Source: an uncultured Prevotella sp. (GTDB taxonomy: Bacteria > Bacteroidota > Bacteroidia > Bacteroidales > Bacteroidaceae). Taken from it: a DNA stretch of 32,840 bases. This document shows, one piece after another, positions 1,483-25,755 of the stretch; within the stretch, counting starts at the first letter, position 1, and each line of letters starts with the position of its first letter. The position numbers and the translations under genes are program-made. Below the pieces are notes generated by a model. It was given only the letters and a program-made list of their open reading frames with translations. It had not been told where the DNA came from and searched no databases. The stretch lies in contig CAMHPC010000001.1 in assembly GCA_946186945.1 (NCBI GenBank), positions 92,555 through 125,394 of the forward strand. The letters are read 5' to 3'.

Positions 1483-3012
1483 TCAGTTCTTGTATTGCTT
1501 GATGCTGCGTATGCTCCCGTCATCCATCGTCTGCTGCATGATGTACAGTCCTTCGGTGGGTTGCTGCATCTCCATGCCTGCGGGGGTGTAATAACGGGTG
1601 CTCACCACGCACCCTTTCGTCTGCTCTGCAGTCTCTATGCCGGTGGTGGTGGACAGTTTCAGATGGTTCACGTGCATTTCCTGTGTGCTGCCGTTATATA
1701 CGTACAGTGTGTGCTTGCCTGCCGTCAGCGTTATGTTCACGTTGTGGTCGGTCCACACACCGCCGGTAGACTCTACAGTCTCGCGTGCAGCGTAGTTGTT
1801 GATGCGGTCCAGACAGATATACACCTTGTTCTGTGCGGTAGACTTCATGCGCAGGGTGAGTTGGTACTCACCGTCCCATGGCACCTCTATCTGGTGTACC
1901 GTGTAACTGCCGGTGCGGTAGCCCACCTGCAGCACCTCGCCGTTGCTGTCGCTATTGCGGCGCAGTTGCACTGCCTGGTCGTTGAGCGAGGCGTCTATAT
2001 AGTCCTTGGCGCTTATCTCGTCGTTCACGGTATAGTACTTGTCCTTGTCAAACGACGACATGTACGTATATACCAGTCCCAGTTCGGAGAGTTCACTCTG
2101 GCTGTTGTTGCTCTTGAAGATGCTCATGTAGGGGAACGAGTTCTCACCGCCGCTGGGGTTTGCCATGAACCAGGCGTAGCCTGCCACCAGGTCGCTCTTC
2201 TCCAGGTACTGCAACTTCTGCGTCATCTGGTCTATCTGAAACTCCTTGGTCATACCCGCACGGTAGGGGTATACATTCTCCTCCCATGAACAAAACTCGG
2301 TGAGCATCATCTTCGGGAAGTGGCCGTGCTCGTTCTTGTAGTTGTCTAAGAAAGCCACTAGGTTGGGATATTTCTCCTTGTTGGCCTGGCGGTAGAGGTC
2401 GTTCTCGCCAGCATCGGTATAGAAGTAGCGACTGGCTATCCAGTCCACGTTCTCTGCCCAGTTCATATAGCAGTGCATAGCCAGATAGTCTACCTTGGCA
2501 TTGGGCACCAGACGGAAGAACTCGTCGTACCAGTCCATGGGGTTCCACACCTTTCCTCCCACCTTCTCACCGGTGAAGTTGAGTGCGGGTGCCACTATCT
2601 GCAGTCCGTAGTCGGCGGCTATCTGTTCCACCTTTGCCCAGGCATTGGCTGCTGCCTGCGGGGTCATGCTCGCCTGCGAGGAGAAGTTGGGCTCGTTGAA
2701 TGCCAACAGGTATTTGGCTCCAGGGTGGTTGCTGAGCCAGTTGCGCAGGTTGGCCTCGTTGTAATCGCTGTTCCAGCACATAGGTGCAAACTCCATGGCA
2801 AGGCCCGGACCGAGGTTCGAGGGGTTGCCCGTGGGTGCCACACCCCAGTTGTACACCCAACTCACTCCGGGTGCCATCTTCTCTATGGTGGTGTTGGATA
2901 GGGCGTGGGTCTTCTCGTCCCAGCACATGCCACGCTTGGCACTACGCTGTTGTGCGTGGGTGCCAAGCGTGATTAGTGTCATGGCGAGGGAAAGTATTAT
3001 ATATTTCCTCAT
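1483..3012 (-). CDS. Asl1-like glycoside hydrolase (GH128-type, predicted endo-beta-1,3-glucanase) with C-terminal CBM6-like domain and T9SS-like tail
   Basis: 509 aa with signal peptide; 'KRGMCWDEKT...GVSWVYNWG', 'YLLAFNEPNF', 'MMLTEFCSWE' typical of the Asl1/GH128 catalytic core; C-terminal beta-sandwich 'WDGEYQLTLRMKSTAQNKVYICLD...LTAGKHTLYVYNG'. Confidence 0.75.
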   Translation of the reverse strand: MRKYIILSLAMTLITLGTHAQQRSAKRGMCWDEKTHALSNTTIEKMAPGVSWVYNWGVAPTGNPSNLGPGLAMEFAPMCWNSDYNEANLRNWLSNHPGAKYLLAFNEPNFSSQASMTPQAAANAWAKVEQIAADYGLQIVAPALNFTGEKVGGKVWNPMDWYDEFFRLVPNAKVDYLAMHCYMNWAENVDWIASRYFYTDAGENDLYRQANKEKYPNLVAFLDNYKNEHGHFPKMMLTEFCSWEENVYPYRAGMTKEFQIDQMTQKLQYLEKSDLVAGYAWFMANPSGGENSFPYMSIFKSNNSQSELSELGLVYTYMSSFDKDKYYTVNDEISAKDYIDASLNDQAVQLRRNSDSNGEVLQVGYRTGSYTVHQIEVPWDGEYQLTLRMKSTAQNKVYICLDRINNYAARETVESTGGVWTDHNVNITLTAGKHTLYVYNGSTQEMHVNHLKLSTTTGIETAEQTKGCVVSTRYYTPAGMEMQQPTEGLYIMQQTMDDGSIRSIKQYKN

Positions 3013-3039: not shown

Positions 3040-6000
3040 TTATTTCACCATCACCTTGCGCACGTCGTTGCCGTGGCGCACGATGTAGATGCCGGGTCGC
3101 TTCATGTCGTTCACACGCATGCCGCTCAGTGTCCATATACCGTCGGTACCGCCCTGACGGGTGGTGGTGGTCACCTGGTCTATGCCGCTCACCGACTCCT
3201 TGTTGCGCCAGAAGAATATCTGGTCCAACTGTATCTCGTCGTTCAGGTGGCTGCCGCTCTGGAACCACACCAGGTTGCCGTGGTATGCCTGGGCACCGCC
3301 GTTGCTGCTGGGCAGCAGGTTGGGATACATGCCCTTTATCACCTTCCAAGGTATGTCGTATGAGTACCACTCACCGTTGCGCTCGTAGTTGCCTATCACT
3401 GGCGACTCACCGTCGAAGGGTGCCGAACCGATGGTGAACTTTGCCTCGGCGAAGCAGATGCGGTGGTTGCAGTTGTCGGTGCCGCGCATGGCGAAGTGCA
3501 GATGCCAGTCGCCGTCATCGAGCACGCTCAGGTCTGCACCGTCCTGCTCCAGGAAGCCGCCGCCCGACCATAGGTTGTCGGTGCCTATGCGCCAGTTGAG
3601 CCAACCCTCGTTGTCGCCAAGGGAGTTGACGGTGGTCCCGCTCTGTGTGCCGTCCACGTAACTGTTGCCGCCCCAGTTGTACAGGGTGTAGTAGCCTGCC
3701 AGGATGTTGTCCTCGCCCTGACGGTCTATGGCACCGCCCGACACGTAGAAGTTGATGAAGTCCTTACCCTCGAAGTCGAAGGTCGACTCGCCGCTGGCAT
3801 CCAGACTCTTGGTGGTATAGTCACCCAGCGGGTTCACTGCAGGGGTGCTGCCATCGGCAGGACGCCAGAAGAACACGTTGTCGAAACTGAACCAACTGCC
3901 GCTGAGGTAGGTGGGCATGGTGTATATGCACAGGGCATAGCCCTTGTAGGCGTTCAGGGGACCGTTGTTTTCGGTGCCTGCCTCGCCCCACAGTTTGCCG
4001 TAGCGCTTCAGTTCTGCCACGGGTATGTCGAATGAGTACCACTCACCGTCGCGGTTGAAGTCGCCTATGAGGGCGCGGTTGCTGTATTCACCCAGTACTA
4101 TGGCAGCATCGTCGTCCTTGCTGCCCAGACGGAACATCACGGGCACATGACCCACGGCGGCATCGCTGCGCACGCTCAGGTGCAGGTAGTATCTGTCGTC
4201 GATGATGCTCAGGTCCTTAGGCTCGGGGTTGAAGCCCATGCCGGCGTCGGAGGAGAAGCCCATGCCGTTCCAGCCCGGACCGATGGTAGAGGCATACGAG
4301 GTGATGGGACCGGTGAACACACCGGTAGAGTTGGTCACGTTGTCGCCCTCGTTACGGCTCTTGAAGGTGTTATCCCAGATGAAGAAGTTGCTCTTGCCAC
4401 CCTGCATGGTGTAGTCGTGCTCTGCCTTCACCAGGTCGCCCTCTTGGTAGGTGCCGTCGCTGGTCACACCCTTCCACATGTCCTCGGTCATACTCAGGGG
4501 GATGATCTCGGCACACTGGGTCGGGTCAAACACGGCATTGCCGTCCTCGTCCAGACTCTTGTAGCCGTATTTGCCCAGGTCCACATTGGTGGTGAATGAG
4601 GGTATGGCCTTCGATTTGCTCTTGTAGAAGAAGATATTGTCCATGCTTATCTCGGTGTCGGTCACACCGCCGCTCATCACTGCCCATGCATTGCCCTCAT
4701 AGGCGTTGGGATTGGCAAACATGGGGTCTGCCATCTCGCGCACCACCTTCATGGGTATGTCGAAGTAGTACCACTCGCCGTCGCGCTTGAAGTCGCCTAT
4801 AGAGGGTAGTTTGCCGTCGCTCTCGCCGATGATGAACTGTGCATCGCCTATGAGTATGGTGTGTGAGGCGTGCATGTCAGGGTCGGCGGCACGCAGTGCG
4901 AAGTGCAGCCAGTAGTTGTCGTCGAGCATGGAGAGGTCCTTGCCATTGCCGGCACTCGATGCGAAGCCCAAGCCCGACCAGCCTGCAGAGGTGACGTAGT
5001 AGGTGGTGTAGCCTTCCTCCCATCCGAAGGAGTTGACGGCACCTGTGTGGCCCTCAGAGGCGTAGGTGCCACTCCATATATACATGAAGTTCTTCTGCTC
5101 GTCCACATTGTAGTTGGCGAGCACAGCATCGTTGGCGAGGAAGTGTCCGGTCACACCGTCGCTGGTGCTGATGAGCACCACGTCCTCGCAGTCGTCGAAG
5201 TCGAAGGTGGTCTCGCCGTTCTCGTCGAGTGCCTTGGTGGCGAAGCCGCTGAGTACGGTCTTCTCGTCGGGCACCACGGGGTCTACGGGTGTCTCGGGTA
5301 TGTTGGTCACCTTCTCGCCGTTCTCATAGTACAGGTACTGTGCGTTCTCGTCGCTCTCGTCCTGGTACACGCGCACCCAGTCCACCATCATCTTCTTCTC
5401 AGTGCCCTCGGGCAGTGCAGAGATCTGTGCGGGGTTGTACAATCCGGTATAGGTACCACCCACTGCCACGTTGAACAGGAAGAAGAAAGGCTTCTGGAAG
5501 TACTTGCCAGGGGCGTAGTCGTCGGTAGAGGGCTCTATGCTGCGTGAGAAGTACATGGCGTTTGCCATTACAGAGGGGTTGTTCTCCTCCCACTGCTCCA
5601 GGGTGATATCATAATACATCTCCAGGGTATACTCGTCCCAGTAGATGGTCACCAGGTGGTATTCATCGTTCTGGAAAGGGTTGATAGTCTCGAATACCGA
5701 CTGTGGGAACTCCTGCGAGTACTGCTGGTGTGCCTCGTTCGATGCATTCGGACCGTAGTGTATGGTGCCGGAGAAGTAGCGGTCCTGCCATCCGTTGTAT
5801 TTACCGCCGGGCAGGGCATTGTAGTGTCCCATCTCGATGATATCTATCTCACCGCAGCGGGGCCATCCGTAGCGGTCTATGTCGTTACCCATCATCCAGT
5901 AGGCGGGCCACAGACCGTTGGCTGTCTTAGGCATCTTGATACGTGCCTGCATCAGTCCGTGCTTGAACACCGACTTGTTCTTGGAGTTCACCCTACCAGA

Positions 6001-6273
6001 GGTGAACTGCTTGCCCATGTAGTTCTCACGACGTGCGGTAAGCACCAGGTTGCCGTCCTCCACACTCACGTTCTCACGACGGTAGTACTGCAACTCCTGG
6101 TTGCCGCCGCCATCGCCGTTCACCTCCACGTTCCATGCATCTTCGTCGAGGGCACTGCCGTTGAAATCATCGCTCCACACCAGTTTGAAACCGCTGGGCA
6201 CATAGTCCTGTGCCAGGGTGGGGAAGCAACAGACGAGCATAAGTGCTGCCCAAAGCGTAAGTCTCTTTCTCAT
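3040..6273 (-). CDS. GH16 endo-beta-glucanase/laminarinase with three tandem ~210-240 aa C-terminal accessory modules and T9SS-like C-terminal tail
   Basis: 1077 aa; signal peptide; GH16 catalytic motif 'CGEIDIIEMGH' (codons near 5833-5853); three repeats each with 'DLS.(L/I)DD...LH...R' then 'IG(D/N)(F/Y).R(D/N)GEWY..DIP' then '(D/Q)(N/I)(I/V)FF(Y/W)'; C-term 'GIYIVRHGNDVRKVMVK'. Confidence 0.88.
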   Translation of the reverse strand: MRKRLTLWAALMLVCCFPTLAQDYVPSGFKLVWSDDFNGSALDEDAWNVEVNGDGGGNQELQYYRRENVSVEDGNLVLTARRENYMGKQFTSGRVNSKNKSVFKHGLMQARIKMPKTANGLWPAYWMMGNDIDRYGWPRCGEIDIIEMGHYNALPGGKYNGWQDRYFSGTIHYGPNASNEAHQQYSQEFPQSVFETINPFQNDEYHLVTIYWDEYTLEMYYDITLEQWEENNPSVMANAMYFSRSIEPSTDDYAPGKYFQKPFFFLFNVAVGGTYTGLYNPAQISALPEGTEKKMMVDWVRVYQDESDENAQYLYYENGEKVTNIPETPVDPVVPDEKTVLSGFATKALDENGETTFDFDDCEDVVLISTSDGVTGHFLANDAVLANYNVDEQKNFMYIWSGTYASEGHTGAVNSFGWEEGYTTYYVTSAGWSGLGFASSAGNGKDLSMLDDNYWLHFALRAADPDMHASHTILIGDAQFIIGESDGKLPSIGDFKRDGEWYYFDIPMKVVREMADPMFANPNAYEGNAWAVMSGGVTDTEISMDNIFFYKSKSKAIPSFTTNVDLGKYGYKSLDEDGNAVFDPTQCAEIIPLSMTEDMWKGVTSDGTYQEGDLVKAEHDYTMQGGKSNFFIWDNTFKSRNEGDNVTNSTGVFTGPITSYASTIGPGWNGMGFSSDAGMGFNPEPKDLSIIDDRYYLHLSVRSDAAVGHVPVMFRLGSKDDDAAIVLGEYSNRALIGDFNRDGEWYSFDIPVAELKRYGKLWGEAGTENNGPLNAYKGYALCIYTMPTYLSGSWFSFDNVFFWRPADGSTPAVNPLGDYTTKSLDASGESTFDFEGKDFINFYVSGGAIDRQGEDNILAGYYTLYNWGGNSYVDGTQSGTTVNSLGDNEGWLNWRIGTDNLWSGGGFLEQDGADLSVLDDGDWHLHFAMRGTDNCNHRICFAEAKFTIGSAPFDGESPVIGNYERNGEWYSYDIPWKVIKGMYPNLLPSSNGGAQAYHGNLVWFQSGSHLNDEIQLDQIFFWRNKESVSGIDQVTTTTRQGGTDGIWTLSGMRVNDMKRPGIYIVRHGNDVRKVMVK

Positions 6274-6339
6274 TGTTTTTTAGATTGGTAATTAGATATA
6301 CAATGGGTTCTCGGATTGAAAATCTTAGGTATATTGGTT

Positions 6340-7269
6340 TTATTTCTTTATTACCTTGCGAGTGCCGTTGTTGGTTTTGATGATGTACACGCCCGGGCGG
6401 TTCATCTCAGCACGGCGACCGGAGAGGTCGTACACCTGCTCTACCTGGCTCTCACCCTCTGTCTTCATCTCGCTGATACCGTCCACGTCGGCGGGCTTGT
6501 AGAAGAAGAAGGCATCCAGACCGATCACCGAACCCAGCTTGGTGATGGTGTAGGTATAAACTGGCGAACCGGGTTCCTGTTCCTTAGTGCAGGTAGAGGC
6601 GGTGCCGTTGTCGAAGGCAAACTGGAAGAAGTTGTCACCAGTCTGCTTCTGCAGTTTTAGGCTTCTAAACAGGCTCTTCAGTTGGCTCACCTTTATCTCC
6701 ACATACTGCCAGCCGCCGTTCTTGGGCAGATTGCCCACCTTTTGGTAGCCGCTCAGACGGCTCTTGCTGCCGGCATAGAGTTTCACGGCATCACCATCGC
6801 CGAAGATGAGGGTCATGCCAGTGTTCTTGGTTACACTGCTGCCGTCGTTGTTCATGATACCTATGTGCAGTACGTGGTCGTCGGTCACCTGTGAGAGGTC
6901 AAATTTGTCTGTGATGCTGCGGAAGCAGGCAGTGCCGCTGCCACCCCAGAAACCGGTGGGAGTGATGCTGAAGCAGTCGTCGTCGCCCCATGAGTTCAGA
7001 TCGCCCTGGTTGGCATTGCATACACTCAGGTCGGGATTGGTGCCCCAGTAGTCGCAGGTGCTGGTCACGCTGTTGGGGTCCAGGTTCTGGTTGGAGAGCA
7101 TGGTGTTGTTGGCTTCTATCTTAGATACGAAAGAAGCGGGAGCGTAGAACACTATATAGTCGCTACCCTTCGACACATCGAAGCCACCGGCAGGGGCTTG
7201 CTCTGTATACTGTGCAAAACTGTTTGCGGCGCAGAGCGCCATCACTGATAAAAGTAAATGTTTTTTCAT
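6340..7269 (-). CDS. Secreted protein carrying one copy of the accessory module seen in the adjacent GH16, plus T9SS-like C-terminal tail; function unknown (predicted glycan binding)
   Basis: 309 aa; signal peptide MKKHLLLSVMALCAANSFAQ; 'FWGGSG...FDLSQVTDDHVLHIGI...VGNLPKNGGWQYVEIKVSQLKSL...GLDAFFFYKPAD' aligns with the GH16 modules; C-term 'GISEM...VYDLSGRRAEMNRPGVYIIKTNNGTRKVIKK'. Confidence 0.7.
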   Translation of the reverse strand: MKKHLLLSVMALCAANSFAQYTEQAPAGGFDVSKGSDYIVFYAPASFVSKIEANNTMLSNQNLDPNSVTSTCDYWGTNPDLSVCNANQGDLNSWGDDDCFSITPTGFWGGSGTACFRSITDKFDLSQVTDDHVLHIGIMNNDGSSVTKNTGMTLIFGDGDAVKLYAGSKSRLSGYQKVGNLPKNGGWQYVEIKVSQLKSLFRSLKLQKQTGDNFFQFAFDNGTASTCTKEQEPGSPVYTYTITKLGSVIGLDAFFFYKPADVDGISEMKTEGESQVEQVYDLSGRRAEMNRPGVYIIKTNNGTRKVIKK

Positions 7270-7462: not shown

Positions 7463-9721
7463 CTACAACTTCAGTTTCATGGTGGTCAGGTCCCTGCTGT
7501 TGGGTCCCACCATGATATCGAAGTCGCCTGGTTCAAGCACCTGCTCTCCCTCGCCGTTGTAGTATTTCAGCATGTCGGTGGTGATGTTGAATCGCACCAC
7601 TTTGCTCTCACCTGGTTCGAGGTGTATGCGCTCGAAAGCCTTCAGTTCCTTCACAGGTCGGCTGATGGATGCCACGCGGTCGCGGATGTAGAGTTGCACC
7701 ACTTCGTCGCCGGCGCGCTTGCCGCTGTTGGTCACTGTCACGGTGGCTGTCACCTGTGCGTTCTCGCTTATCGTGGCACTGCTCAGTGCTGCCCCGCTGT
7801 ATGTGAACTGCGTGTAACTCAGTCCGTAGCCGAAGGGGTAGAGGGGATCGTTGCGCACATCAAGGTAGTTGGACTGGTATTTATAGAACTCCTTGGCACC
7901 CTCAGCCACCGGACGGCCTGTGTTCAGGTGGTTATAGTAGAGGGGAGCCTGACCGGTGGCTTGCGGCATGCTCATGGTGAGGTGGCCGCTGGGGTTCTTG
8001 TCGCCGAATACTACATCGCAGATGGCTGGGGCTGCCTCACTGCCACCAAACCACACGTTGAGTATGGCGGGCAGGTTCTCGCTCTCCCATTTCAGCACCG
8101 TGGGACGACCGGAGAAATTGAGCAGCACCACGGGTTTGCCCAAGGCTGCCAGTTCGCGCAGCAGTGACATCTGCACGTCGGGCAGGGTCAGGTCGCTGCG
8201 CGAGGCACACTCGCCGCTCATGTCGGCACACTCACCCATGGCACAAACAATCACGTCGGCTTGACGTGCTACCTTCAGCGCCTCCTCACGACCTTTGACA
8301 TCGTCTATGCGGGGTATGGTCTTGCCAAACTCCGCTGCCACCTGCAACTTCTCGTCGGCGGCAATGTTGCAACCCTGGGCATAGAGCAGTGTGCCCTCCT
8401 TGCCTATGGCCTCGGCCATGGCTTCGCGCAGGGTGCTGTAGCGGTCGGGTGTCATGGCCACACACCAGGTGCCGGCCATGTTGCTGCGGGTGTCTGCCAG
8501 CGGACCGATGAGAGCAATCTTTTGGTTGCGCTTCAGCGGCAGTGTCTGGTTCTCGTTCTTCAGCAATACGAAGGTCTCTGCGGCAATGTCGCGGGCAGTC
8601 TGACGGTTCTCCTTGGTGAAGATGTCACGACTGCGGCGCTTCTCGTTGCAGTACTTGTATGGGTTTTTGAAGAGTCCCAGTTTGTATTTAGCCTCGAGCA
8701 CGCGTCGACAGGCCTGATCCACGGCCTCCATGCTCACCTTGCCCTCGTCTATACTCTTCTTCAGAGTGCCAAGGAAGCCCTGGGCGCACATGTCCATGTC
8801 AGTGCCGGCATTGAGTGCCTGGGCAGACGCCTCCTGCAGGTCGGCGGCTGTGCCGTGGTTGAGTATCTCGCCTATTGACCCGTAGTCGGTCACCACCATA
8901 CCATTGTAGCCCCACTGGCCGCGCAGCACTTCGGTGAGCAGCCAGCGGTTGGCGGTGGCGGGCACACCGTCCACCACGTTGAACGAACTCATCACCGTGC
9001 CCACGCCGGCCTCGGCACAGGCGCGATAGGGAGGCAGGTACTGGTTGTACATGCGTACGCGGCTCATGTCCACGGTGTTGTAGTCGCGACCACTCTCGCT
9101 GCCACCGTACAGGGCGTAGTGCTTCACGCAGGCCATGATGTTGTCTTCACGGCTGTAATCGCCCTGATAGCCGCGTACCATGGCCTTGCCTATCTCACCG
9201 CTCAGCCATGGGTCCTCGCCGTTGCCTTCGCTCACTCGTCCCCAGCGGGCATCTATGCAGATGTCCACCATAGGCGAGAAGGTCCAGTTAATACCGTCGG
9301 CAGAGGCCTCAAGGGCTGCTATGTGCGCACTGCGCTCCACTGCCGAGAGGTCCCACGAGCACGAGAGTGCCAGGGGGATGGGGAAGATGGTCTCGTAGCC
9401 GTGTATCACGTCCATACCCACGATGAGGGGTATGCCCAGCCGACTCTTCTCCACTGCTACCTGCTGCAAGGCCTTGATTTTGTCGGCTCCCTTGATGTTG
9501 AATATACCGCCCATCTTGCCGGCGGCAATGTCGCCTGCCACCTGATTGTTCATGGCAGCACCTGTGGTGATGTCACCTGCTACCATCAGGTTCAGCTGAC
9601 CCAGTTTCTCTTCTAAGGTCATCCGTCCCATCAGGTCGTCGATGAAGCGTTTCATGTCGTCTTGTGCATGCGCTCCCACCATGGCGGCGCATACGCCGAT
9701 GAGCATCAGCAGTCTTTTCAT
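7463..9721 (-). CDS. GH3 beta-glucosidase (BglX-like)
   Basis: 752 aa; 'MTLEEKLGQL', 'GMDVIHGYETIFPIPLA', 'VKHYALYGG', nucleophile context 'GMVVTDYGSIGEI', C-terminal FnIII-like 'NSGKRAGDEVVQLYIRD'. Start overlaps the upstream GH3 stop by 4 nt (ATGA). Confidence 0.93.
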   Translation of the reverse strand: MKRLLMLIGVCAAMVGAHAQDDMKRFIDDLMGRMTLEEKLGQLNLMVAGDITTGAAMNNQVAGDIAAGKMGGIFNIKGADKIKALQQVAVEKSRLGIPLIVGMDVIHGYETIFPIPLALSCSWDLSAVERSAHIAALEASADGINWTFSPMVDICIDARWGRVSEGNGEDPWLSGEIGKAMVRGYQGDYSREDNIMACVKHYALYGGSESGRDYNTVDMSRVRMYNQYLPPYRACAEAGVGTVMSSFNVVDGVPATANRWLLTEVLRGQWGYNGMVVTDYGSIGEILNHGTAADLQEASAQALNAGTDMDMCAQGFLGTLKKSIDEGKVSMEAVDQACRRVLEAKYKLGLFKNPYKYCNEKRRSRDIFTKENRQTARDIAAETFVLLKNENQTLPLKRNQKIALIGPLADTRSNMAGTWCVAMTPDRYSTLREAMAEAIGKEGTLLYAQGCNIAADEKLQVAAEFGKTIPRIDDVKGREEALKVARQADVIVCAMGECADMSGECASRSDLTLPDVQMSLLRELAALGKPVVLLNFSGRPTVLKWESENLPAILNVWFGGSEAAPAICDVVFGDKNPSGHLTMSMPQATGQAPLYYNHLNTGRPVAEGAKEFYKYQSNYLDVRNDPLYPFGYGLSYTQFTYSGAALSSATISENAQVTATVTVTNSGKRAGDEVVQLYIRDRVASISRPVKELKAFERIHLEPGESKVVRFNITTDMLKYYNGEGEQVLEPGDFDIMVGPNSRDLTTMKLKL

Positions 9722-11952
9722 TTCAAAGTGAATTTAACGCGTTGTTTCAGATTGTCTGAGGCATTACCAACCAGAGCCTCGAAGTCGCCGGCCTCAGCCT
9801 TCCAACTCTTGCTCTGCTCGTCATAGAAACTCAGTGCACTGCTGTCTATGGTGAGACTTACCTGGCGGCTCTCGCCCGGCTGTAGCATCACCTTTTCAAA
9901 GGCCTTCAGTTCCTTGAAGGGGCGGTCTACCGACGCCTTCACATCGTGTATGTACAGTTGCACCACTTCGGCACCAGCACGCTTACCAGTGTTCTTCACT
10001 GTTGCGGTAAAGGTGATTTTGTCATTCTGTCCCATCACTTTCTTGTCGGCAGTGAGTCCGCTGATTTCAAAGGTGGTATAGCTCAGTCCGTGACCGAAGG
10101 CGTAGAGGGGACGGGTCTTGAAGTGTTCCACACCTCTATAGCCCACGTAGATGCCTTCCTTATACTCCTCGTCAATGATATCCTTGCTTGCACGCCATAC
10201 GCCGGGGAAGGCATTCAGGCGGTGGGCACCCACGTCCTGCAATGACACAGGCCAGGTGAAGGGCAGTTTGCCCGAGGGGTTCACGTCGCCGCTCAGCACG
10301 TCGGCGAGTGCCTCGCCTGCCTCGCTGCCTATGAACCAGCCCTGTACTATGGCTGCCACCTCCTTGTTCCATGGCATTGCCACGGGGTTGCCGGAGATGT
10401 TCACATACACCACGTTCTTGTTGGCTTTTGCCAGAGCCTTTATCAGGTCGTTCTGGGCGTAGGGCAGTCCGTACTCCTTACGGTCGTGACCCTCGCAGTC
10501 CTGATAGTCGCTCTTGTTCAGTCCACCGAAGATAACCACATAGTCGGCTTCACGTGCCTTGGCCACGGCATCATCGATGAGCTGTTTGGCTGTGCGGCTG
10601 TCGTTCAGGTCCTGACCGGTGGTCACACCGTTATAGTTGCCTGTCACGTCACCTACATAGCCGCGCTCATACTCTACATTGGCAAAGCGGGCACGCATGC
10701 CATTGAGGGGAGAGATTTCCTTCTGCACCTTGAGCGAAGAGGAACCGCCGCCTACGGTCATCATCTTTATGGCGTTCTCGCCAACGACGAGTATGTGGGC
10801 ATCAGAGCGCAGAGGCAGGATCTGACGCTCATTCTTCAGCACCACGATACCCTCTCCGGCGATGGTGCGGGCGGCATCGTAATGACTCTCGCTACACATG
10901 CTGCCATAGCCGCGCTGGCGGTTCATGGTGGTGCGGTAGTAGAGGCGAAGTATGCGGCGCACCTTTTCGTTCAGTTCCTTGTCGGTGTACTTGCCCTCCT
11001 CCAATGCCTTCTTGTAGGGATTGGCCAGATAGTAGTTCTCGTAGGCGTTGGTGGCACCCATCGTCAGACCGTCGGTCCAGGTGCCAAACTCCATGTCGAG
11101 ACCGTTCTTCACAGCCTGGTCGGTATCGTGCACACCGCCCCAGTCGCTCACTACCACACCGTCAAAGGCCCAGTCGCCCTTGAGTATCTGGTTGAGCATG
11201 ATGCTGTTGTGACAGTTGTGCTCGTTCTTGTACAGGTTGTACGCGCCCATGATGCCCCAGGTCTTGCCCTCCGTCACTGCGGCACGGAAGGCAGGCAGGT
11301 AGATCTCGTGCAGGGCACGGTCGCTGATTACCACGTTTACCTGATGGCGGTATTCCTCATCGTTGTTGAGTGCATAGTGTTTCACACAGGCTGCCACACC
11401 GTTCTCCTGCATGCCCTTGATGTAGGGCACCACCATGCGCGAGGCCAGATACGGGTCCTCACCCATGTATTCGAAGTTGCGTCCGCCCAGCGGGGTGCGC
11501 AGTATGTTCACGCCAGGACCCAGTATCATGTCCTTGCCGCGATACAGTGCCTCTTCGCCCAGGCTCTTGCCGTAGCGGTGAGCCAGTGAGGGGTTCCAGG
11601 TGGCTGTCAGACAGGTGAGGGCGGGGAAGGCCACACACGAGTCGTTGGTCTGGCCGGCCTGTTCCCATTCGTCCCACAGCACGTCGGGGCGCACACCGTG
11701 AGGACCATCGTCGGTCCAGAAGTCGGGAAAGCCCAGGCGGGGCACGCCTGCAGCTGAGAATTTCGACTGTGCATGTATCACACGCAGTTTCTCGTCGCGC
11801 GTCATGCGGCTGAGAGCATCCTCTATGCGCTGCTCCACAGGCATGCTCTCATCCAGATACACTGGAGTCTGAGCGTTGGTGCTGAGTGCTGTCATGAGCA
11901 GGCATGTGCTCAATAGTATCTTCCTAAGATGTTTCATAAGGGTATTTGTCAA
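9718..11952 (-). CDS. GH3 beta-glucosidase
   Basis: 744 aa; 'MTRDEKLRVIHAQ', 'GPGVNILRTPLGGRNFEYMGEDP', 'VKHYALNNDE', 'GVVVSDWGGVHD', FnIII-like C-terminus 'NTGKRAGAEVVQLYIHD'. Confidence 0.92.
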   Translation of the reverse strand: MTNTLMKHLRKILLSTCLLMTALSTNAQTPVYLDESMPVEQRIEDALSRMTRDEKLRVIHAQSKFSAAGVPRLGFPDFWTDDGPHGVRPDVLWDEWEQAGQTNDSCVAFPALTCLTATWNPSLAHRYGKSLGEEALYRGKDMILGPGVNILRTPLGGRNFEYMGEDPYLASRMVVPYIKGMQENGVAACVKHYALNNDEEYRHQVNVVISDRALHEIYLPAFRAAVTEGKTWGIMGAYNLYKNEHNCHNSIMLNQILKGDWAFDGVVVSDWGGVHDTDQAVKNGLDMEFGTWTDGLTMGATNAYENYYLANPYKKALEEGKYTDKELNEKVRRILRLYYRTTMNRQRGYGSMCSESHYDAARTIAGEGIVVLKNERQILPLRSDAHILVVGENAIKMMTVGGGSSSLKVQKEISPLNGMRARFANVEYERGYVGDVTGNYNGVTTGQDLNDSRTAKQLIDDAVAKAREADYVVIFGGLNKSDYQDCEGHDRKEYGLPYAQNDLIKALAKANKNVVYVNISGNPVAMPWNKEVAAIVQGWFIGSEAGEALADVLSGDVNPSGKLPFTWPVSLQDVGAHRLNAFPGVWRASKDIIDEEYKEGIYVGYRGVEHFKTRPLYAFGHGLSYTTFEISGLTADKKVMGQNDKITFTATVKNTGKRAGAEVVQLYIHDVKASVDRPFKELKAFEKVMLQPGESRQVSLTIDSSALSFYDEQSKSWKAEAGDFEALVGNASDNLKQRVKFTLK

Positions 11953-11968: not shown

Positions 11969-13207
11969 TCATTTGTTCACCTTCAACCCCATGCTCTCTA
12001 TGTAAGCCTTCTGAGGTGTGCAGTTCTCATAGCGGCATAGGCGGATGAAGTCTTTGAGCAGGGCGCGGGCCTTCTGCATGTCGGGACGCTCCTTGCGGAT
12101 GTTCTCGTATGTGCTGCGGTCGGCCTCGGCAAAGGTTTCTACCAGTTCCCAGCCCTCGGGACGGGTGATGCCGTTGAAGCAGGAGTCGCTCATCTTCTTG
12201 TAGGGCCAGAAGGTGTAGCCGATGTTGTTGTCCTTCATCATCTTCACTATGTCGGCCTGCCACTCCATGGTGTTGTGTCCAGTCTCGCCCATGTACATAG
12301 GCAGTCCGGTGCGGTCTCTGAACTCAATGATGTTCTTAAACGCCTCGGCATGCGGCGAGCCACCGTAGCGGTGACAAGTGTACATTATCTTGTCGTCAAA
12401 CTTCCAGTCAGTGAAGGATTCGAAGTTGCCGTTCCACTGCGAACCGCCCAGCAGTATGATGTGGTTGCGGTCTACCTCACGTATGGCGGCTGTCGCACGC
12501 TTGTACAGGGGTTCCAGTAGCTTGTTTATCTCCTCCTTGTTGTCGAAGTAATGTGCTATAGGCTCGTTCATCAGTTCGTAGCCCAGTATCACGGGCTCGT
12601 CCTTATAGCGTTCGGCAATGTGCTTCCAGATGTCGCAGAAGAGTTGCTGACTGGTCTCGCTCTCAAACAGCCAGGGGTATCCGAAACTGTTGTCTATGTT
12701 GTCGCCTGTCTGTCCGCCTGGGCAGTCGTGCATGTCGAGTATCAGGAACAGACCGTACTTGCGGCACCATTTCACCACGTCGTCCACACGCTGGAAACCG
12801 TCCTGCGCCGAAGAGAGTCCCATGTAGTCCTCGTCGGTGAACGACTTGTAGTTGAACGGCAGGCGGATGGTGTTGGAACCTGTTGAGGCTATGAACTGTA
12901 TGTCTGCCTCGGTGATGTAGTTGTCCTTGAACTCACGCCAGAACAGTGCCGCATCATCCGGACCCACCATCTCGCTCAGCATCTGGTCTATCATCCAGTA
13001 GCTGTTGCAGCGTTTGAAGCCAAACATATATCCCTCCGGGTTGAGCCAGTTGCCCAGGTTGGTGCCGAGGATGAACAGGCGTTCGCCGTTGGGCTGCACC
13101 AGGTGGGTGCCGTCTATGCTTACAAACTTGCTCTTGGATTTGCCGGCACTCACGGGCAGTGCCATGAGCATTGCCATAAGTATTATGGCGAGTGTGTGTC
13201 TTCTCAT
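11969..13207 (-). CDS. GH5 family glycoside hydrolase (predicted glucanase)
   Basis: 412 aa; signal peptide; 'GTNLGNWLNPEGYMF', 'NTIRLPFNY', 'LILDMHDCPGGQ', 'ILGYELMNEPIAH' (acid/base), 'MYMGETGHN' (nucleophile). Confidence 0.88.
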   Translation of the reverse strand: MRRHTLAIILMAMLMALPVSAGKSKSKFVSIDGTHLVQPNGERLFILGTNLGNWLNPEGYMFGFKRCNSYWMIDQMLSEMVGPDDAALFWREFKDNYITEADIQFIASTGSNTIRLPFNYKSFTDEDYMGLSSAQDGFQRVDDVVKWCRKYGLFLILDMHDCPGGQTGDNIDNSFGYPWLFESETSQQLFCDIWKHIAERYKDEPVILGYELMNEPIAHYFDNKEEINKLLEPLYKRATAAIREVDRNHIILLGGSQWNGNFESFTDWKFDDKIMYTCHRYGGSPHAEAFKNIIEFRDRTGLPMYMGETGHNTMEWQADIVKMMKDNNIGYTFWPYKKMSDSCFNGITRPEGWELVETFAEADRSTYENIRKERPDMQKARALLKDFIRLCRYENCTPQKAYIESMGLKVNK

Positions 13208-13211
13208 GGCA

Positions 13212-14579
13212 TCAGTCTTTTTGGAATACGCGTATATAGTCCACTTCCATGGTCAATGGCAGTGCATTCTCGTCCACTCCGTTCATGCCGCCCCACGAGC
13301 CGCCCCAGGCCAGATTGATGATGGGGTAGAAGGCGTAGTGGAAGGGCCACTGGTTATGACCTGAGCCCATGGCTTTCTTGGTTACTGCCAACTGCACCTT
13401 GCCGTCTACGTATGTGGTGATGGCATCCGCGGTCCACTCCAGTGCGTAGGTGTGGTATGCCCCCTCGGCATCGGCTATGGTCATAGCGTGGGTTTTCTGT
13501 GTACCCTTGGTGTGGTTGTAGTCCTGGGTGTGTACCGACGATGACACTTCGTTGGGCACGCAGCCCACCTCTTCCATGATGTCTATCTCGCCGCACATGG
13601 GCCATGGGTTGGTGTTCCAGTCGTTGCCCACTGGCATCATCCAGAAAGCGGGCCAGGTGCCCTTGCCAGCAGGCAGTTTCATGCGTGCCTCGAAGTAGCC
13701 ATACTCCCAGCCGCTGCCCACATGGGCGTACACACGACCGGAGTACACCTTGCCGTCCTTGCCCTTGAAGCAGTTGATGTTCAGGTGGCCGTCCACCAGT
13801 TCGGTGATGTTCTTGCCGTCTATGGCACCCTTGCGGTAGTTCTGCAGTTCGTTGTTCACCCAGCCAGAGTTCTGCACCTCGTGGGTCCAGTCGCTGCTGT
13901 TGAGTTGTGTGCCTTCGTCAAATTCGTCGTGCCACACCAAGTGGTAGCCCTCGGGGGTGTTTATGGTGCGGTCCTCGGCACTCGACTGTGTCACGGTCAC
14001 CTCTGCCGCGCTGTTGCCATCGCTCACTACCACGCTACCTGTACGGTTGCTCATGGCATCGTTCTGTGCTGCGGTGATGGTGAGGGTATTGCCGCTCTTG
14101 GCAGTGGTTATCCAACTCTCGCTGGCTGTGGCGGTCCAGTCGTTACCATCCACGGTCACGGTTTTTGAGCCACCCACCGAGGGCATGTATATCTTGTCGG
14201 TAGACACCTGCAGGGGTGCTGCCTGTGTCACTGTCACGTTCTCTCTTGCGGTGCCGCACTTCACGGTCACGGTGCCGTTGCGGCTGCTTGTGCTGGTGTT
14301 CTTCTTCACCGTCACGGTCACGGTGCCCTGGGTAGAGGCTGAGCCGCTGGAGGTGATGCTTATCCATTCGCTATTGTTGGCAAAAGCGGTCCATTCGCCA
14401 GAGGTCTGCACGTTCACTGTGAAGGTGCCGCCGGCAGAGGAGGCGCTGATGCTGGTGGGGTTGAGGGTCACGCTCCCTTTCTTGTCGGGGGGGTTGCTGT
14501 CGCCGCCGTCATCGTCGCTGCCACAGGCACTCAGGGTTAGTGCAGCAAACAGCAGGGGTAGAAACAGGAATTTCTTCAT
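13212..14579 (-). CDS. BACON-domain GH16 endo-beta-glucanase lipoprotein
   Basis: 455 aa; lipobox 'LTLSACGSDDDGG'; two BACON-like domains ending 'ENVTVTQAAP' and 'AEVTVTQSSA'; GH16 'WPMCGEIDIMEEVG' and 'MEVDYIRVFQKD'. Confidence 0.92.
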   Translation of the reverse strand: MKKFLFLPLLFAALTLSACGSDDDGGDSNPPDKKGSVTLNPTSISASSAGGTFTVNVQTSGEWTAFANNSEWISITSSGSASTQGTVTVTVKKNTSTSSRNGTVTVKCGTARENVTVTQAAPLQVSTDKIYMPSVGGSKTVTVDGNDWTATASESWITTAKSGNTLTITAAQNDAMSNRTGSVVVSDGNSAAEVTVTQSSAEDRTINTPEGYHLVWHDEFDEGTQLNSSDWTHEVQNSGWVNNELQNYRKGAIDGKNITELVDGHLNINCFKGKDGKVYSGRVYAHVGSGWEYGYFEARMKLPAGKGTWPAFWMMPVGNDWNTNPWPMCGEIDIMEEVGCVPNEVSSSVHTQDYNHTKGTQKTHAMTIADAEGAYHTYALEWTADAITTYVDGKVQLAVTKKAMGSGHNQWPFHYAFYPIINLAWGGSWGGMNGVDENALPLTMEVDYIRVFQKD

Positions 14580-14685: not shown

Positions 14686-16089
14686 TCAGTGTTTGATGAC
14701 AGTCACGTTCTTGATGGTTATCACGGTACCTTCCTCAGCACCAGCGAAGTCGAACACGAACTTCATGTTGGGAGCATCCTCACCCTTGCTCAGGCTCACA
14801 CCTTCGTAGCGTACTACGTAATTGCCAGCCTTGATGGGTATGCGGTCAGCGAAGAAGAAGTTCTCGTCGTTGTCGCTCTGTGTGAACTTGAAGGTAGCAC
14901 CGGGCAGGTTCTTTGTGGTGGTCACCTCGCAAGAGAAGTCTATCACGTCGTTGCCGCTGAAGGGGAGTGTTATATCCTTGTTTAATTCCCATTTGTACTG
15001 TGCGTGCCACTGCTCGTTCATTGTGGTAGCAGGAATAGTAATCTGGTGGCTGCTACCCTCGTGTACACTCTTCAGGTCTTCAGGCTTTACACCCATGTCA
15101 CCCCAGCCGGCATCGCCGAACCAGCAACCCTCGGTGAAGGCCTGTGCCTGGTCTATCTGCTTCCATACGTTGTTTGCATCATCGTAGTTGAATGGAATAG
15201 CCAGTTCCTCGGGAGCTTCAATCTCGTTCAGGTCGTGACGTATCAGACACAAGTTCTCAATGATTACTTCGGTCTCAGCCTCACCGCCGCCGAAGTCGAA
15301 CACTATCTTCAGGTTGTCGGTGTCTATACCACTCAGTTCGCTGGCATAGAAGCATACGGGTTCGTTGGCCTCAGTAACTTTGAAGTCCTTGTCAAGCAGG
15401 ATGATGTTGTCTTCGTCTTCCTGAGCGCATAGCTTTATCTTGAAGCCATTGTGCTTTTTGCTCATGGTCACGATTGCAGAGAAATCGTACTCGTATTCAG
15501 AAGAGGTCTGTATGCCGGTGTTTTCGCATTTCAGCTGTCCCTGCCAGCGCTGTGAACCCATACCTTTGGGCAAAGTAATCTTTATCTCGCCGCCATTCAC
15601 TGAAGGAACTGGTTGTGGGTCGAGTTTGCCCCAACCTTCATCGGCAAACCATGTGTCATTGTTGTTGAGAGGAGCACCGTTGAGCAGGTTGTTGGGATTG
15701 TTGCCATCGGGGTCGAAACCGCTGAAGCCGTTCATCTTGGTCTTCTCGATGGTGATGGGGAAGTCGATGGCACCGTCGCTGATACCGTTGCGGTTTTTCA
15801 CCTTGGCCTGTATCTGGTGCTCACCCTTCTTGCGCCAGTAGCGTGTGAACTGGGTCTGTCCGGAATAGGTCTCGCCGTCTACTATCCATACGGGAGTCAC
15901 ACCGGGAGCCTCCTTGAAAGTCATGATAGCGGTATTGGTAGACTGGTCTACTGTCACGCTGAAGTTATCGGCATAGTCGGTGATAGAGGGGAGGTTGCCG
16001 TTGGCACCATCGTAACTATCGGGCGAGCAAGCCGTCATGGTCAGTCCTGCGAAGAGGACGCCAGCCATATATTTAAATACGTTTTTCAT
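14686..16089 (-). CDS. Surface glycan-binding lipoprotein (SGBP-B/SusE-position), PKD-like N-terminus plus two CBM4/16-like repeats
   Basis: 467 aa; lipobox 'LTMTACSPD'; duplicated module ('WFADEGWG...QRWQGQLKCE...LKIVFDFGGGEAETEVIIENLCLIRHD' versus 'WFGDAGWG...EQWHAQYKWE...MKFVFDFAGAEEGTVITIKNVTVIKH'); sits directly after SusD. Confidence 0.82.
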   Translation of the reverse strand: MKNVFKYMAGVLFAGLTMTACSPDSYDGANGNLPSITDYADNFSVTVDQSTNTAIMTFKEAPGVTPVWIVDGETYSGQTQFTRYWRKKGEHQIQAKVKNRNGISDGAIDFPITIEKTKMNGFSGFDPDGNNPNNLLNGAPLNNNDTWFADEGWGKLDPQPVPSVNGGEIKITLPKGMGSQRWQGQLKCENTGIQTSSEYEYDFSAIVTMSKKHNGFKIKLCAQEDEDNIILLDKDFKVTEANEPVCFYASELSGIDTDNLKIVFDFGGGEAETEVIIENLCLIRHDLNEIEAPEELAIPFNYDDANNVWKQIDQAQAFTEGCWFGDAGWGDMGVKPEDLKSVHEGSSHQITIPATTMNEQWHAQYKWELNKDITLPFSGNDVIDFSCEVTTTKNLPGATFKFTQSDNDENFFFADRIPIKAGNYVVRYEGVSLSKGEDAPNMKFVFDFAGAEEGTVITIKNVTVIKH

Positions 16090-16110: not shown

Positions 16111-17649
16111 TTATTTGTAATCGTTCTGCTTCAGGGCGGGGTCAGAGTTGAGCTCAGCCTGTGCGATAGGAATATACTTCTTCTTCTCACTCCAAGTGTT
16201 GGTACGGTAGTCGGGGAATTCGGGATCGGGCTTGAGTACTGAGGGAGCCATACCTGTGCGCACGAGGTCCCAGTAGCGCTTGCCTTCACCAACAAACTCC
16301 AGGTGACGCTCCTCTATCACATCAGCCTTGGTCACGGAAGCAACGGTAGAGATACCTGCACGTGCGCGCACCATGTTCACATACTGAGCAGCCTCGCCGG
16401 CGCTACCATTGGTCTCGAGAATGAGCTCTGCTGCGTTGAGCAGGGTCTCAGCATAGCGATAGTAACGGTAGTTGTTGTTGTAGTTCAGGTTGTTGTCGAA
16501 GCTTGCTGCGGCATTGTTCTTTGAGTAGGGACGGTATTTGCCCAGCCACAGGTGGGTGTCCTCGTAGCGTTCAGTGTACTCCACACCACGCACGTCCCAG
16601 ATGGTTGCATCGCGACGCAGGTCATTTTCAGCGTACATGTCGTAGGTCTTCTGTTTCACAGGCAGGAAGCCCCAGCCGTCTGCACCGGCATCCCAGCCAT
16701 CACCACCAGGCCATGAGTTAGGTGAAATCAGTGTGGGCAGCACGGTACCACCTACAGCCAAAGGACTGTTCCAACCGCGCTCGTTACCTCCTGACTCGTA
16801 GTTGATTTCCCAGATGCTCTCTGAGGTCCACTCACCCTCGGTCTCCCAGATATTGGCGAAACTCGGGTTCAGCTGGTACTGGCTGTCGTTGATGATAGCC
16901 TTCATGTATTCCAGAGCTTTCGGATAGCGAGCCTTGTCGTTTTGGTACATCACCATCTCGGCATACATCATGTAGCAGAAAGCCTGTGAAGCACGACCGG
17001 CATCAGTGTAGGCCCAGCGCATGGGCAGTACCTTAGAGTTGATTACCTCTTCCAGTTCCACTATCAGTTGGTCGTACACCTCGTCGGCAGATAACTGGGG
17101 AGCGGTGTAGTTGGTAGCGGCAGTCAGGTTCTCCAGATAGAAGGGGATGTTTCCGAAGTAGTGCCACAGCATATTGAAGTAGAACACGCGCATGGCACGG
17201 CCCTGCATCTCATAGTTCTTCTTGGCAGCATCGGTCACCGACTCGTCGGCCCAGTCCAGGTATCTCATCAGGTCGTTGCAACGCTTGATACCGGAGTAGC
17301 ACACAGTCCACAGACTGCTCAGTGTGTTGTTCTCGTCAGCCTCGTAGTTGGACAGCAGGTGCCAGTTGTGCATATCGTCACGGTTTGAACCGCCCACCCA
17401 GAAGTCATCACCCATGATTTCTGAGTCGATGTTGAGTGCGTTGTACTGTCCCAGTCCCCAGTCAGGCCAGTGGATGGGGTCGTAGGCAGCGATGAGAGCC
17501 TCTTGCAGGTGCTCATCAGTCTTGTAATAGTCCTCCAGGTCATCACCATTGGGATTGGTCACCTCCAGGAAGTCGTCGCTGCAAGAAGTGGTGCTGAACA
17601 CCATGCCGGCAGTGAGCAAGCCTATTGCGAATATCTTTAAAGTTTTCAT
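16111..17649 (-). CDS. susD: SusD/RagB family outer-membrane lipoprotein (start corrected to the Met at 17649)
   Basis: MKTLKIFAIGLLTAGMVFSTTSCSDDFLEVTNPNG...; lipobox TTSC; 'YRYAETLLNAAELILETNG...AAQYVNMVRARAG', 'FVGEGKRYWDLVRTG'. The ORF-track start at 17718 adds 23 aa without signal character and overlaps susC. Confidence 0.93.
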   Translation of the reverse strand: MKTLKIFAIGLLTAGMVFSTTSCSDDFLEVTNPNGDDLEDYYKTDEHLQEALIAAYDPIHWPDWGLGQYNALNIDSEIMGDDFWVGGSNRDDMHNWHLLSNYEADENNTLSSLWTVCYSGIKRCNDLMRYLDWADESVTDAAKKNYEMQGRAMRVFYFNMLWHYFGNIPFYLENLTAATNYTAPQLSADEVYDQLIVELEEVINSKVLPMRWAYTDAGRASQAFCYMMYAEMVMYQNDKARYPKALEYMKAIINDSQYQLNPSFANIWETEGEWTSESIWEINYESGGNERGWNSPLAVGGTVLPTLISPNSWPGGDGWDAGADGWGFLPVKQKTYDMYAENDLRRDATIWDVRGVEYTERYEDTHLWLGKYRPYSKNNAAASFDNNLNYNNNYRYYRYAETLLNAAELILETNGSAGEAAQYVNMVRARAGISTVASVTKADVIEERHLEFVGEGKRYWDLVRTGMAPSVLKPDPEFPDYRTNTWSEKKKYIPIAQAELNSDPALKQNDYK

Positions 17650-17687
17650 ATATGTCTTCTTTTTTATTTGAAAGGTTTCAGTCTGGA

Positions 17688-20600
17688 TTAAAATGACAGG
17701 TTCAGTCCTACGTACCATGTGCGAGCCTGGGGATAGATACCGCGGTCGATACCCAGTGAGGTGCCGCTTGAAGAGATTTCGGGATCGAAACCATGATACT
17801 TGGTCCAGGTGATCAGGTTCTCAGCCATCACATAGAAGCGCAGACGGTCGATACCAATCTTCTGGGTGAAGGTCTGAGGCAGGGTGTAACCCAGTGATAT
17901 GTTCTTCAGACGCAGATAAGAAGCATCGTGTATGTACAGGTCGCTCATCTGCCAGTTGGTGGTGTTGCCACTCATCAGGATAGGATACTTGTTGGAGGTG
18001 CCGGGACCAGTCCAGCGACCGAGCATCCACTCGGGGAAGTTGGCTGAGAAGATATCCTGACGATAGGTAGCGTCGAACACATCAGCACCTGCCACACCCT
18101 GGAAGAAGGCACGGAAGTCGATGCCACGCCATTCTGCGTTGATATCCAGACCGAAGGTCCAACTGGGAGTACCGTTACCGATGTTGGTGCGGTCGTCGGG
18201 AGTAATCTGTCCGTCGCCGTTCACATCTACGAAGCGTGTGAAACCAGGCTGTGCATCGGGCTGTATCAGACCACCGTCGGCATTCTGGTATGCGTTCACC
18301 TCATCCCATGTCTGGAAGATACCGTTGGTCTTGTAACCATAGAAGTAGGGGAAGGGTTGGCCGTTCTCACCACGGGTGCCACCACCGTCGATACCGTGCA
18401 CGCCATCCAGGTCTATGTAACCGGTGTCGTTACCCAGGTTCTTCAGGGTGTTCTTCAGGTAAGAGGCATTACCTTTCACAGCGAAGCGAGCGTCAGCCAC
18501 GTTGAACTTGTAACCGATTTCAAACTCCCAACCTTTGTTCTCCATGTCACCCACGTTGGCAAGAGGCTTGTTCTCACCTACGTATGAGGGGATGGGGCTG
18601 GTGATGATCATACCGTTGGTCTTCTTGATGAAGTAGTCTACGGTGAAGGTCAGACGGTTGTCGAAGAAACCGAAGTCGAGACCTATGTCAGTCTGCTCAC
18701 TCTCCTCCCATTTCAGGTCGGGGTTGGCAGTGGTAGAAGCCTTTGAACCAGAGTATTTCACTGCGGGATTACCAAAGAGTACGTTGCTGCCCATGGCACT
18801 GGCTACGGTATAGGCGAAGTCGCCTATGTTATCGTTACCGTTCTTACCCCAACTGGCGCGCAGTTTCATGTTGGTGAGCCAGTTGCGGGTCTGCTCCATG
18901 AATTTCTCATTGTGGATGTTCCAACCGATAGATGCTGAGGGGAAGGTACCATACTTGTTGTTAGGACCGAAGCGGCTGGAACCGTCACGACGGATAGTGG
19001 CCTGCACCATGTAGCGCTCGTCGTAGTTGTAACTCACACGACCGAAGAGAGAAGACACGCGGTGCTCTACGTTGGGACCACCGTAACCGTTGAACTCAGC
19101 ATAGGGAGTGCCATCCAGTTTACCGTTTTCGTCCACCTTATATATGACATTGGCATTGGTATAACTCATGTAGGGCTTGTCCAGATTCACCAGGTTCCAA
19201 CGGCTGGCACCCACATAGTCGCTCTTGTTCTTCATAGCACTCTGACCCAGCACCACAGCGATGTTGTGCTTGCCTATCTGCTTGTCCCATGTCAGGGTGT
19301 TCTCCACCTGCCATACGGTGCCTTTGTTGGACTGGCTCCAGGCAGAGGTGTGGTTGCGGAAGTTGTTACCAGAGAGGTAGTAGAGAGTCTTGTCGCTACC
19401 GTCGTTGCCCCAGAAACTCATGTCCACACTGTAGGTGAAGTGATATTTGATGTTGTCCCAAATCTGCAGGTCGAACGAGAACTTAGGCACAAACTTGTGC
19501 GACCAGTTCTGGTCTACGGGCAGTGCGAGCATAGCCAGCGGGTTGTTGATCTCCTGATACGAGCCGCCGTAGCCGGGGATGGTATAGAGGTTGCCATTGG
19601 CATCGCGCAGCAGTTGATAGCCCTGAGCATCCTCGTAGGCAGCGATCATGCCACGACCTACTGTGCTCTCGGGGTCAACTGTCGGGGTGAGGGTGGGAGC
19701 CAGATACAGGGCAGAACCCAGGATTGAACCCCACTCAGAGTTGGTAGTGATACCGCGGCTCTTCACGCGGGTGTATGCAAGGTTCACGGTCAGGTCCAGT
19801 TTGTTCAGGAAACTGCGGTCCTGTGTGGCATCCAGCAGATTGTAGTTGGTATTGCTGCGCAGTGACAGACGCTCGTAGTTTGACACGCCCTTGTTACCAC
19901 CGATGATACCGTCCTGGGTGTAGTAACCCATAGAGAGGAAGTAGTTGATCTTCTCTGTAGCACCAGAGGCAGACACCTCGTGGTTCATCACAGGAGCATT
20001 GTCGTTGAACACCAGACTCTGCCAGTCGGTACCGAATCCCTTGATGAGGTTGCCGTTGGTATCCACCATATTATAAGGATCGGCAAAGATGGGAGCAGCA
20101 CCGCCGTTCACAGCACGCTCGTTCTGCAGTATAGCATAGTCGGTGGCACTGGTCACGTCGCGCTTGCGCCATGCACTCTGCCATCCGTAAGAGAAGTTGT
20201 AGTTCAGAGAGGTCTTGCCCAACTTACCCTTCTTGGTGGTCACAAGTACCACACCATTGGCAGCACGAGCACCGTAGATGGCAGCCGAGGCAGCATCCTT
20301 CAGCACTTCGATACTCTCAATGTCGCTGGGGTTAACAAAGTCGAGACCGCCGGAGATAGGCATACCGTCGACGATGTAGAGAGGGTCGTTGCCGCTGTTC
20401 ACAGAACTGGTACCACGCACACGCACACGGGGAGCCTCACCGGGCTGACCGGATGCTGAGGTCACCTGCACACCGGCAGCCAGACCCTTCAGAGCGTTAT
20501 CCATACGAACGGGGGTCTTGCCCTCCAGGTCCTGAGCACTGACCTTGGCAATGGCAGCAGTCACCACGCTCTTCTTCTGAACACCGTAACCTACTACCAC

Positions 20601-20909
20601 CACGTCGTTCAGACTGATGGCCTCGTCCTCGGCGAGCACTATGCGCATGTTCTGACGAGCAGTCACCTCCTGACTCTGATAACCGATATAGGATATCACA
20701 AGAGTTGAGCCTGCATCAACAGACACATTGAAACGGCCGTCGACATCGGTCACCGAACCTTGTGAGGTGCCTTTCTGCACCACCGAGGCTCCGATGATGG
20801 GTTCTCCCTGTCCGTCGACCACAACACCAGAATAGTTTGTCTTCTGGGCGAAAGCAGTCATTGACGCTACGAGCGCCAACAACAAGAACAGAAACTTTCT
20901 TCTTTTCAT
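17688..20909 (-). CDS. susC: SusC/RagA family TonB-linked outer-membrane transporter
   Basis: 1073 aa; '[35 protein letters not shown]', '[11 protein letters not shown]', plug '[24 protein letters not shown]', '[29 protein letters not shown]', C-terminal aromatic '[10 protein letters not shown]'. Confidence 0.96.
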   Translation of the reverse strand: [1073 protein letters not shown]

Positions 20910-23020: not shown

Positions 23021-23034
23021 CAACTACACACGCC

Positions 23035-23946: not shown

Positions 23947-24078
23947 TAGAATAAAACGTTCCGAAGTAAGAATAGAATGGAAAACGGCCGTCGACCGTTG
24001 GTTCAGGCCGTTCTGATGGGCGTTGCCCTGGGTACGCAGGTTCCCCCCTGTCGCCCCGAAGGGTCAAAAGCAAAACAT

Positions 24079-24114
24079 CACAATAACCATAAAAACCACA
24101 ATAACCATAAAAAA
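24079..24114 (+). repeat. Two tandem copies of an 18-bp unit (cacaataaccataaaaac) just upstream of pruA
   Basis: 24079-24096 cacaataaccataaaaac and 24097-24114 cacaataaccataaaaaa. Confidence 0.75.
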
Positions 24115-24125
24115 CCAAAAACACT

Positions 24126-25751: not shown

Positions 25752-25755
25752 CAAC

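Follow-up and report, generated by a model that had tools for sequence, protein, structure and literature searches.

The DNA analysed here is a 32,840-nucleotide stretch (positions 92,555 to 125,394 of contig CAMHPC010000001.1, hereafter the window) from the 2.65 Mb draft genome of an uncultured Prevotella sp. of the order Bacteroidales. Two neighbouring minus-strand genes are its main subject: one encodes a glycoside hydrolase family 16 (GH16) protein of 1077 aa (3040-6273), which carries three modules of ~220-250 aa, and the other, directly upstream, encodes a 309-aa protein with a further copy of the module. The features of the two proteins are as follows.

5335..6273, minus strand: GH16 catalytic domain (about aa 1-313) with signal peptide; solved-structure matches and motif by eye
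4609..5268, minus strand: module 1 of the GH16 (aa 336-555); translation, domain search and AlphaFold (AF2) model
3850..4608, minus strand: module 2 of the GH16 (aa 556-808); domain search, 344 bits
3193..3849, minus strand: module 3 of the GH16 (aa 809-1027); domain search, 335 bits
3043..3183, minus strand: C-terminal tag of the GH16 (about aa 1031-1077), like that of the type IX secretion system (T9SS); sequence pattern, no library match of its own
7213..7269, minus strand: probable signal peptide of the 309-aa protein (aa 1-19); read from sequence
6484..7194, minus strand: stand-alone module of the 309-aa protein (aa 26-262); profile match and AF2 model
6343..6477, minus strand: tag at the C-terminus of the 309-aa protein (about aa 265-309), a putative T9SS-type sorting signal; TIGR04183, sub-threshold

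The four copies are homologous, and the one in the 309-aa protein has diverged. Local alignments compared against 500 shuffles gave z=45 for repeats 1 and 2, z=40 for 1 and 3, and z=21 for 2 and 3, while the 309-aa protein aligned with repeats 1, 2 and 3 at z=11.4, 6.8 and 7.3, each above the best of the 500 shuffles. A profile built from the three repeats matched aa 29-261 of the 309-aa protein (i-E 2e-11). Profiles with no sequence in common, made from GH16 modules (A8) and from proteins of the 309-aa kind (309-type proteins; A7), aligned over 194 columns with 99.5% probability (E 2.5e-23; E-values from profile comparison are single-comparison values without database correction). Profile comparison also joined the module proteins encoded beside SusD to these (100%), which makes the three groups one family. 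An earlier note, made from the letters and translations, had proposed three repeats in the GH16 and a fourth copy in its neighbour; this arrangement was confirmed by the shuffles, the repeat profile and the profile-profile alignment, with repeat boundaries close to the domain-search coordinates and the quoted motifs present.

The AF2 model of module 1 is a beta-sandwich predicted with high confidence (pLDDT, the model's per-residue confidence score, 97.4). Foldseek placed it nearest, among solved structures, to the carbohydrate-binding module (CBM) families CBM11 (E 2.5e-5) and CBM30 (1wmx, prob 1.00, TM 0.48/0.59), with 6r31, a CBM11 complex with a beta-1,3-1,4 tetrasaccharide, among the matches. 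Lower matches comprised CBM16, CBM22, the ExoP C-domain 3ut0, the beta-1,3-glucan-binding CBM6 1w9s and the laminarin-binding CBM X584 8qx6. The model of the 309-aa protein (aa 20-309) is less certain (pLDDT 85.9), and its top match was the xyloglucan surface glycan-binding protein (SGBP) 7k44, an SGBP-B, with low TM-scores. A beta-sandwich of glycan-binding type, as had been suggested from the translations, is thus borne out by the predicted model and its neighbours.

Both genes belong to a polysaccharide utilisation locus (PUL) whose minus-strand order, from 20909 to 1483, is SusC, SusD, SGBP, BACON-GH16, GH5, GH3, GH3, the 309-aa protein, the repeat-bearing GH16 and GH128. Its other genes are listed below.

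17688..20909, minus strand: SusC-like TonB-dependent transporter; translation and position beside SusD only
16111..17718, minus strand: SusD homologue; Pfam PF07980, E 2e-29
14686..16089, minus strand: SGBP-B of the PUL, a relative of BtSGBP-B; PDB 7kwb, E 3e-73
13212-14579, minus strand: BACON-GH16; domain library scan
11969-13207, minus strand: GH5; domain library scan
9718-11952, minus strand: GH3; domain library scan
7463-9721, minus strand: GH3; domain library scan
1483..3012, minus strand: GH128-type glycosidase (Glyco_hydro_cc), third gene of the cassette described below; Pfam PF11790, E 1e-42

The locus is best read as one for beta-1,3-glucan utilisation because its SGBP is a relative of BtSGBP-B, a binder of laminarins and yeast beta-glucan (PMC7157763). 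The catalytic domain of the repeat-bearing GH16 shows the motif E-x-D-x-x-E, read from the sequence within CGEIDIIEMG, and its closest solved structures are the GH16 5nbo and the laminarinases 8xph and 4crq. The GH128-type protein also has a weak CBM6-like region and a T9SS-like tail. The nearest named relative is an uncultured rumen Prevotella (L036), with 90% identity in module 1. The BACON-GH16, the second GH16 here, combines two BACON domains with a signal of lipoprotein type, an arrangement also seen in other beta-1,3-glucan loci.

Gene context was compared across loci fetched by a search with the module. Among 31 GH16-module loci (those whose GH16 has two or three modules; some of the species are closely related, so the 31 do not count as independent), a stand-alone module gene lies directly upstream of the GH16 in 23, and GH128 directly downstream in the same 23. 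The remaining eight have neither, so that the three genes form an all-or-nothing cassette. In L057:3531-8561, L058:9056-13468 and L055:9011-13096, a three-module GH16 carries an extra 390-660 aa with Ig-like/fn3 domains and has no stand-alone gene or GH128 as neighbour. The module loci contain 21 SusD genes, 14 of which are followed directly by a stand-alone module gene (13 distinct loci, since L076 and L078 are the same place); these module genes occupy the slot of a glucan-binding SGBP-B. The next recognised gene downstream of them is GH16 or GH128 and, once, a second module gene. SusD is followed by an SGBP like that of the window in 3/21; in L064 and L065 an SGBP-like gene adjoins SusD, with the module gene on the other strand, and in L069 and L084 the module gene comes after SusD with a gap between. 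In the window the BtSGBP-B relative takes the slot after SusD, and the gene for the 309-aa protein follows five genes later. The link between module, GH16 and neighbouring gene drawn in the earlier note holds in that the stand-alone copy beside the enzyme is conserved, and proved too narrow in that the family is wider and sits in many loci in the SGBP-B slot.

W65, W97, H122 and W166 (module 1 numbering) are invariant in all 68 diverse family members. A scan of one genome per species yielded 42 loci, mostly from Prevotella, Muribaculaceae and other Bacteroidales, plus Flammeovirga; within the order the family was present in 15 of 394 genomes, the window genome included. A full-length search with the 309-aa protein across 301 family genomes recovered one true 309-type relative (G147), and the remaining matches outside the window genome were mostly to the C-terminal tag. 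No match to the module was found in plasmid sequences. The module regions of both proteins gave no Pfam or NCBIfam match at meaningful score and no sequence match to solved structures, and the family profile gave none against PDB up to E 10. The family is called unnamed relative to Pfam, NCBIfam and PDB, and provisionally, CAZy numbering lying outside the comparison.

A chain of homologues nevertheless joins the modules to two named families. SusD-adjacent members were linked by profile comparison (99.8%) to modules of the L088/L089 type, and L088 (29.5 bits) and L089 (28.7) exceed the Pfam cut-off of 26.1 for Exop_C (PF18559), the C-domain of the exo-1,3/1,4-beta-glucanase ExoP. The family was also linked (97.7%) to GH16-attached modules from other orders of the class, two of which, L162 and L164, lie above the CBM30 (PF21582) cut-off, and directly to a CBM30 set at 90.9%; control comparisons gave 0.1-8%. 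With intermediate members matching Exop_C and CBM30, and profile links to CBM30, the family is not wholly undescribed in kind. The earlier note had taken the module for undescribed and for no standard CBM family; the first does not hold entirely, and the second holds at the usual Pfam and NCBIfam cut-offs, though not for the distant members. The window modules share with CBM30 and CBM11 (PF03425) the beta-sandwich fold, and the intermediates above the CBM30 cut-off are likewise attached C-terminally to GH16, whereas the window modules lack a PF21582 match, are linked by profile at only 90.9% and measure about 220 aa as against about 175. Exop_C shares 3ut0 as a fold match, but ExoP's copy sits on a GH3 and no window protein matches PF18559.

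Other candidates were compared and set aside. SGBP_B_XBD (PF18329) was weakly matched by 9 of 68 members (best E 1e-4), and 7k44 is the best fold match of the 309-aa model; membership was rejected on profile comparisons of 0.7-40% over short stretches, the window proteins having no match. The SGBP-B proteins of beta(1,3)-glucan loci (BtSGBP-B, BuSGBP-B, BfSGBP-B) share with family members of other Bacteroidota the slot after SusD and similar enzyme neighbours, but the module has no sequence homology to the solved ones, and in the window the copies belong to proteins with T9SS-type tags that accompany a BtSGBP-B-type protein; homology with that protein, the window's own SGBP, was rejected at 0.2% (hhalign). 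CBM112 likewise places one module type in an enzyme, in SGBPs after SusD and in discrete proteins, but binds mannan (PMC13357471), and was rejected at 0.1% (hhalign) against a GH26 insert presumed to be CBM112. L088 also matched a PDB chain named VopV over a short stretch, which was taken as chance. Being below the sequence cut-offs of each, the module is placed outside every named family compared.

The tails of these proteins suggest how they leave the cell. The last ~45 residues of the 309-aa protein recur as the extreme C-terminus of other, mostly larger, proteins in related genomes (23/23 checked), and its stand-alone relatives L076 and L085 score above the cut-off of the T9SS model. The tails of the GH16 and the GH128 look alike by eye, and by eye the GH5 and GH3 proteins have no such tail. 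SprA, the T9SS translocon, is present in the window genome above its model cut-off, in two halves on two contigs. No lipobox cysteine was seen by eye after the signal peptide of the 309-aa protein, which has its C-terminal tag instead and in this differs from the surface lipoproteins of the SGBP-B class. Export of the 309-aa protein to the cell surface is likely on the strength of its tag and of SprA, and to that extent the surface location proposed in the earlier note stands, with a tag that falls short of the T9SS model cut-off. Anchors differ among module proteins, which include T9SS tails, dockerin-like tails and proteins carrying Big_2. A dockerin type I-like tail replaces the T9SS-like one in L063:7055-10222, L066:9857-10828, L067:9926-11551 and L068:5990-7582. 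The 30-40-aa C-terminal 'DUF' on some CBM112 proteins (PMC13357471) may be the same T9SS-like tag.

A quick tree with several long branches was used to follow the history of the modules. Modules 1, 2 and 3 of most loci cluster by position, window modules 2 and 3 with their counterparts elsewhere, which indicates that the triplication predates these species. The exception is L059, where all copies cluster together, the stand-alone one with its own GH16 module 3. Elsewhere the 309-type proteins fall on one long branch with 100% support (1.67 changes per column), separate from nearly all GH16 modules, and have invariant residues of their own in addition to the family-wide W, W, H and W.

Based on these results, we consider it probable that the window holds four copies of one beta-sandwich CBM, of a family centred on Bacteroidota with CBM30 and the ExoP C-domain as distant relatives, and that its ligand is most likely beta-1,3-glucan. 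The most likely role of the module is that of a glucan-binding CBM with an additional function as an SGBP, working like CBM30/CBM11 and SGBP-B. Under such a scheme the type IX system would carry the GH16, the 309-aa protein and the GH128 to the cell surface, where the three modules would hold the GH16 on long or insoluble beta-1,3-glucan and the 309-aa protein, next to the SusC/SusD/SGBP-B complex, would be a capture protein in its own right. The oligosaccharides released would pass through SusC and be finished by the GH3 and GH5 enzymes. What the module binds and what is gained from a free copy are both inferred.

Several points weigh against this interpretation. The TM-scores are at the level of a fold class and not of a close relative; Pfam CBM30 (PF21582) has no match anywhere in the window genome, so the direct link to CBM30 is remote. 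TIGR04183 matched the tag of the 309-aa protein at E 0.019 and 15 bits, below the library T9SS cut-off of 23. The association with SusD and GH16 depends on how loci were sampled: as they were fetched by module, the direction of inference is that, given the module, the neighbours are beta-glucan genes. Lastly, the long 309-type branch leaves room for a changed function, and the ligand of these proteins may have changed or been lost.

This last point opens an alternative in which beta-1,3-glucan binding is confined to the GH16 modules and the SusD-adjacent relatives; the 309-aa protein would then be a paralogue that has diverged and does something else, for instance binds a different polymer or docks the enzyme at the surface. 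The 100% supported branch with its own invariant residues fits this, as does the presence of a BtSGBP-B-type SGBP already in the window; the 309-type proteins nevertheless keep the overall module and the family-wide W, W, H and W, and the L059 stand-alone copy groups with the GH16 module 3 of its own locus, so that a free copy can be the same as an attached one. We regard a separate role as rather unlikely. That the modules bind a different or broader beta-glucan, mixed-linkage or cellulose-like, seems doubtful: by fold and by remote sequence similarity the best matches are CBM11 and CBM30, 6r31 holds a beta-1,3-1,4 ligand and some SGBPs of 1,3-glucan loci also bind barley mixed-linkage glucan (PMC7157763), but the window PUL, with its BtSGBP-B relative, laminarinase-like GH16 and GH128, points to beta-1,3-glucan. 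Beta-sandwich spacers are used by several surface proteins, and three tandem copies beside a free one could serve assembly, yet a role as structural spacers or protein-protein domains that keep secreted enzymes together is very improbable, the nearest folds being glycan-binding modules and not Ig-like spacers, and stand-alone members standing in the SGBP-B position, several with a separate Big_2 spacer of their own.

Extending the beta-1,3-glucan-binding reading beyond the window, we give an even chance to the proposal that this is a new CBM/SGBP family for beta-1,3-glucan, found in the SGBP-B slot of many Bacteroidota, and that in rumen and gut Prevotella and in Muribaculaceae it was transferred to a cassette with T9SS export, made up of a free binder, a triple-module GH16 and GH128, which works beside a classical lipoprotein PUL. 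Should the modules turn out to bind beta-1,3-glucan, this would give a function to a so far uncharacterised gene that recurs in the SGBP-B slot of glucan loci in Bacteroidota, and an annotation now given as 'hypothetical' in pipelines could be corrected. The three-gene cassette further suggests that some Prevotella-type bacteria route part of their PUL surface machinery via the type IX system and not as lipoproteins.

Outside the PUL, the plus-strand genes at 21770-27021 resemble by sequence those of ornithine/arginine metabolism (an aminotransferase, an amidinotransferase-like protein and an aldehyde dehydrogenase) and are apparently unrelated to it. Beyond them, 27417-30608 encodes a protein of 1063 aa that has BspA-like leucine-rich repeats and whose C-terminal tail is similar to the T9SS-like tag.

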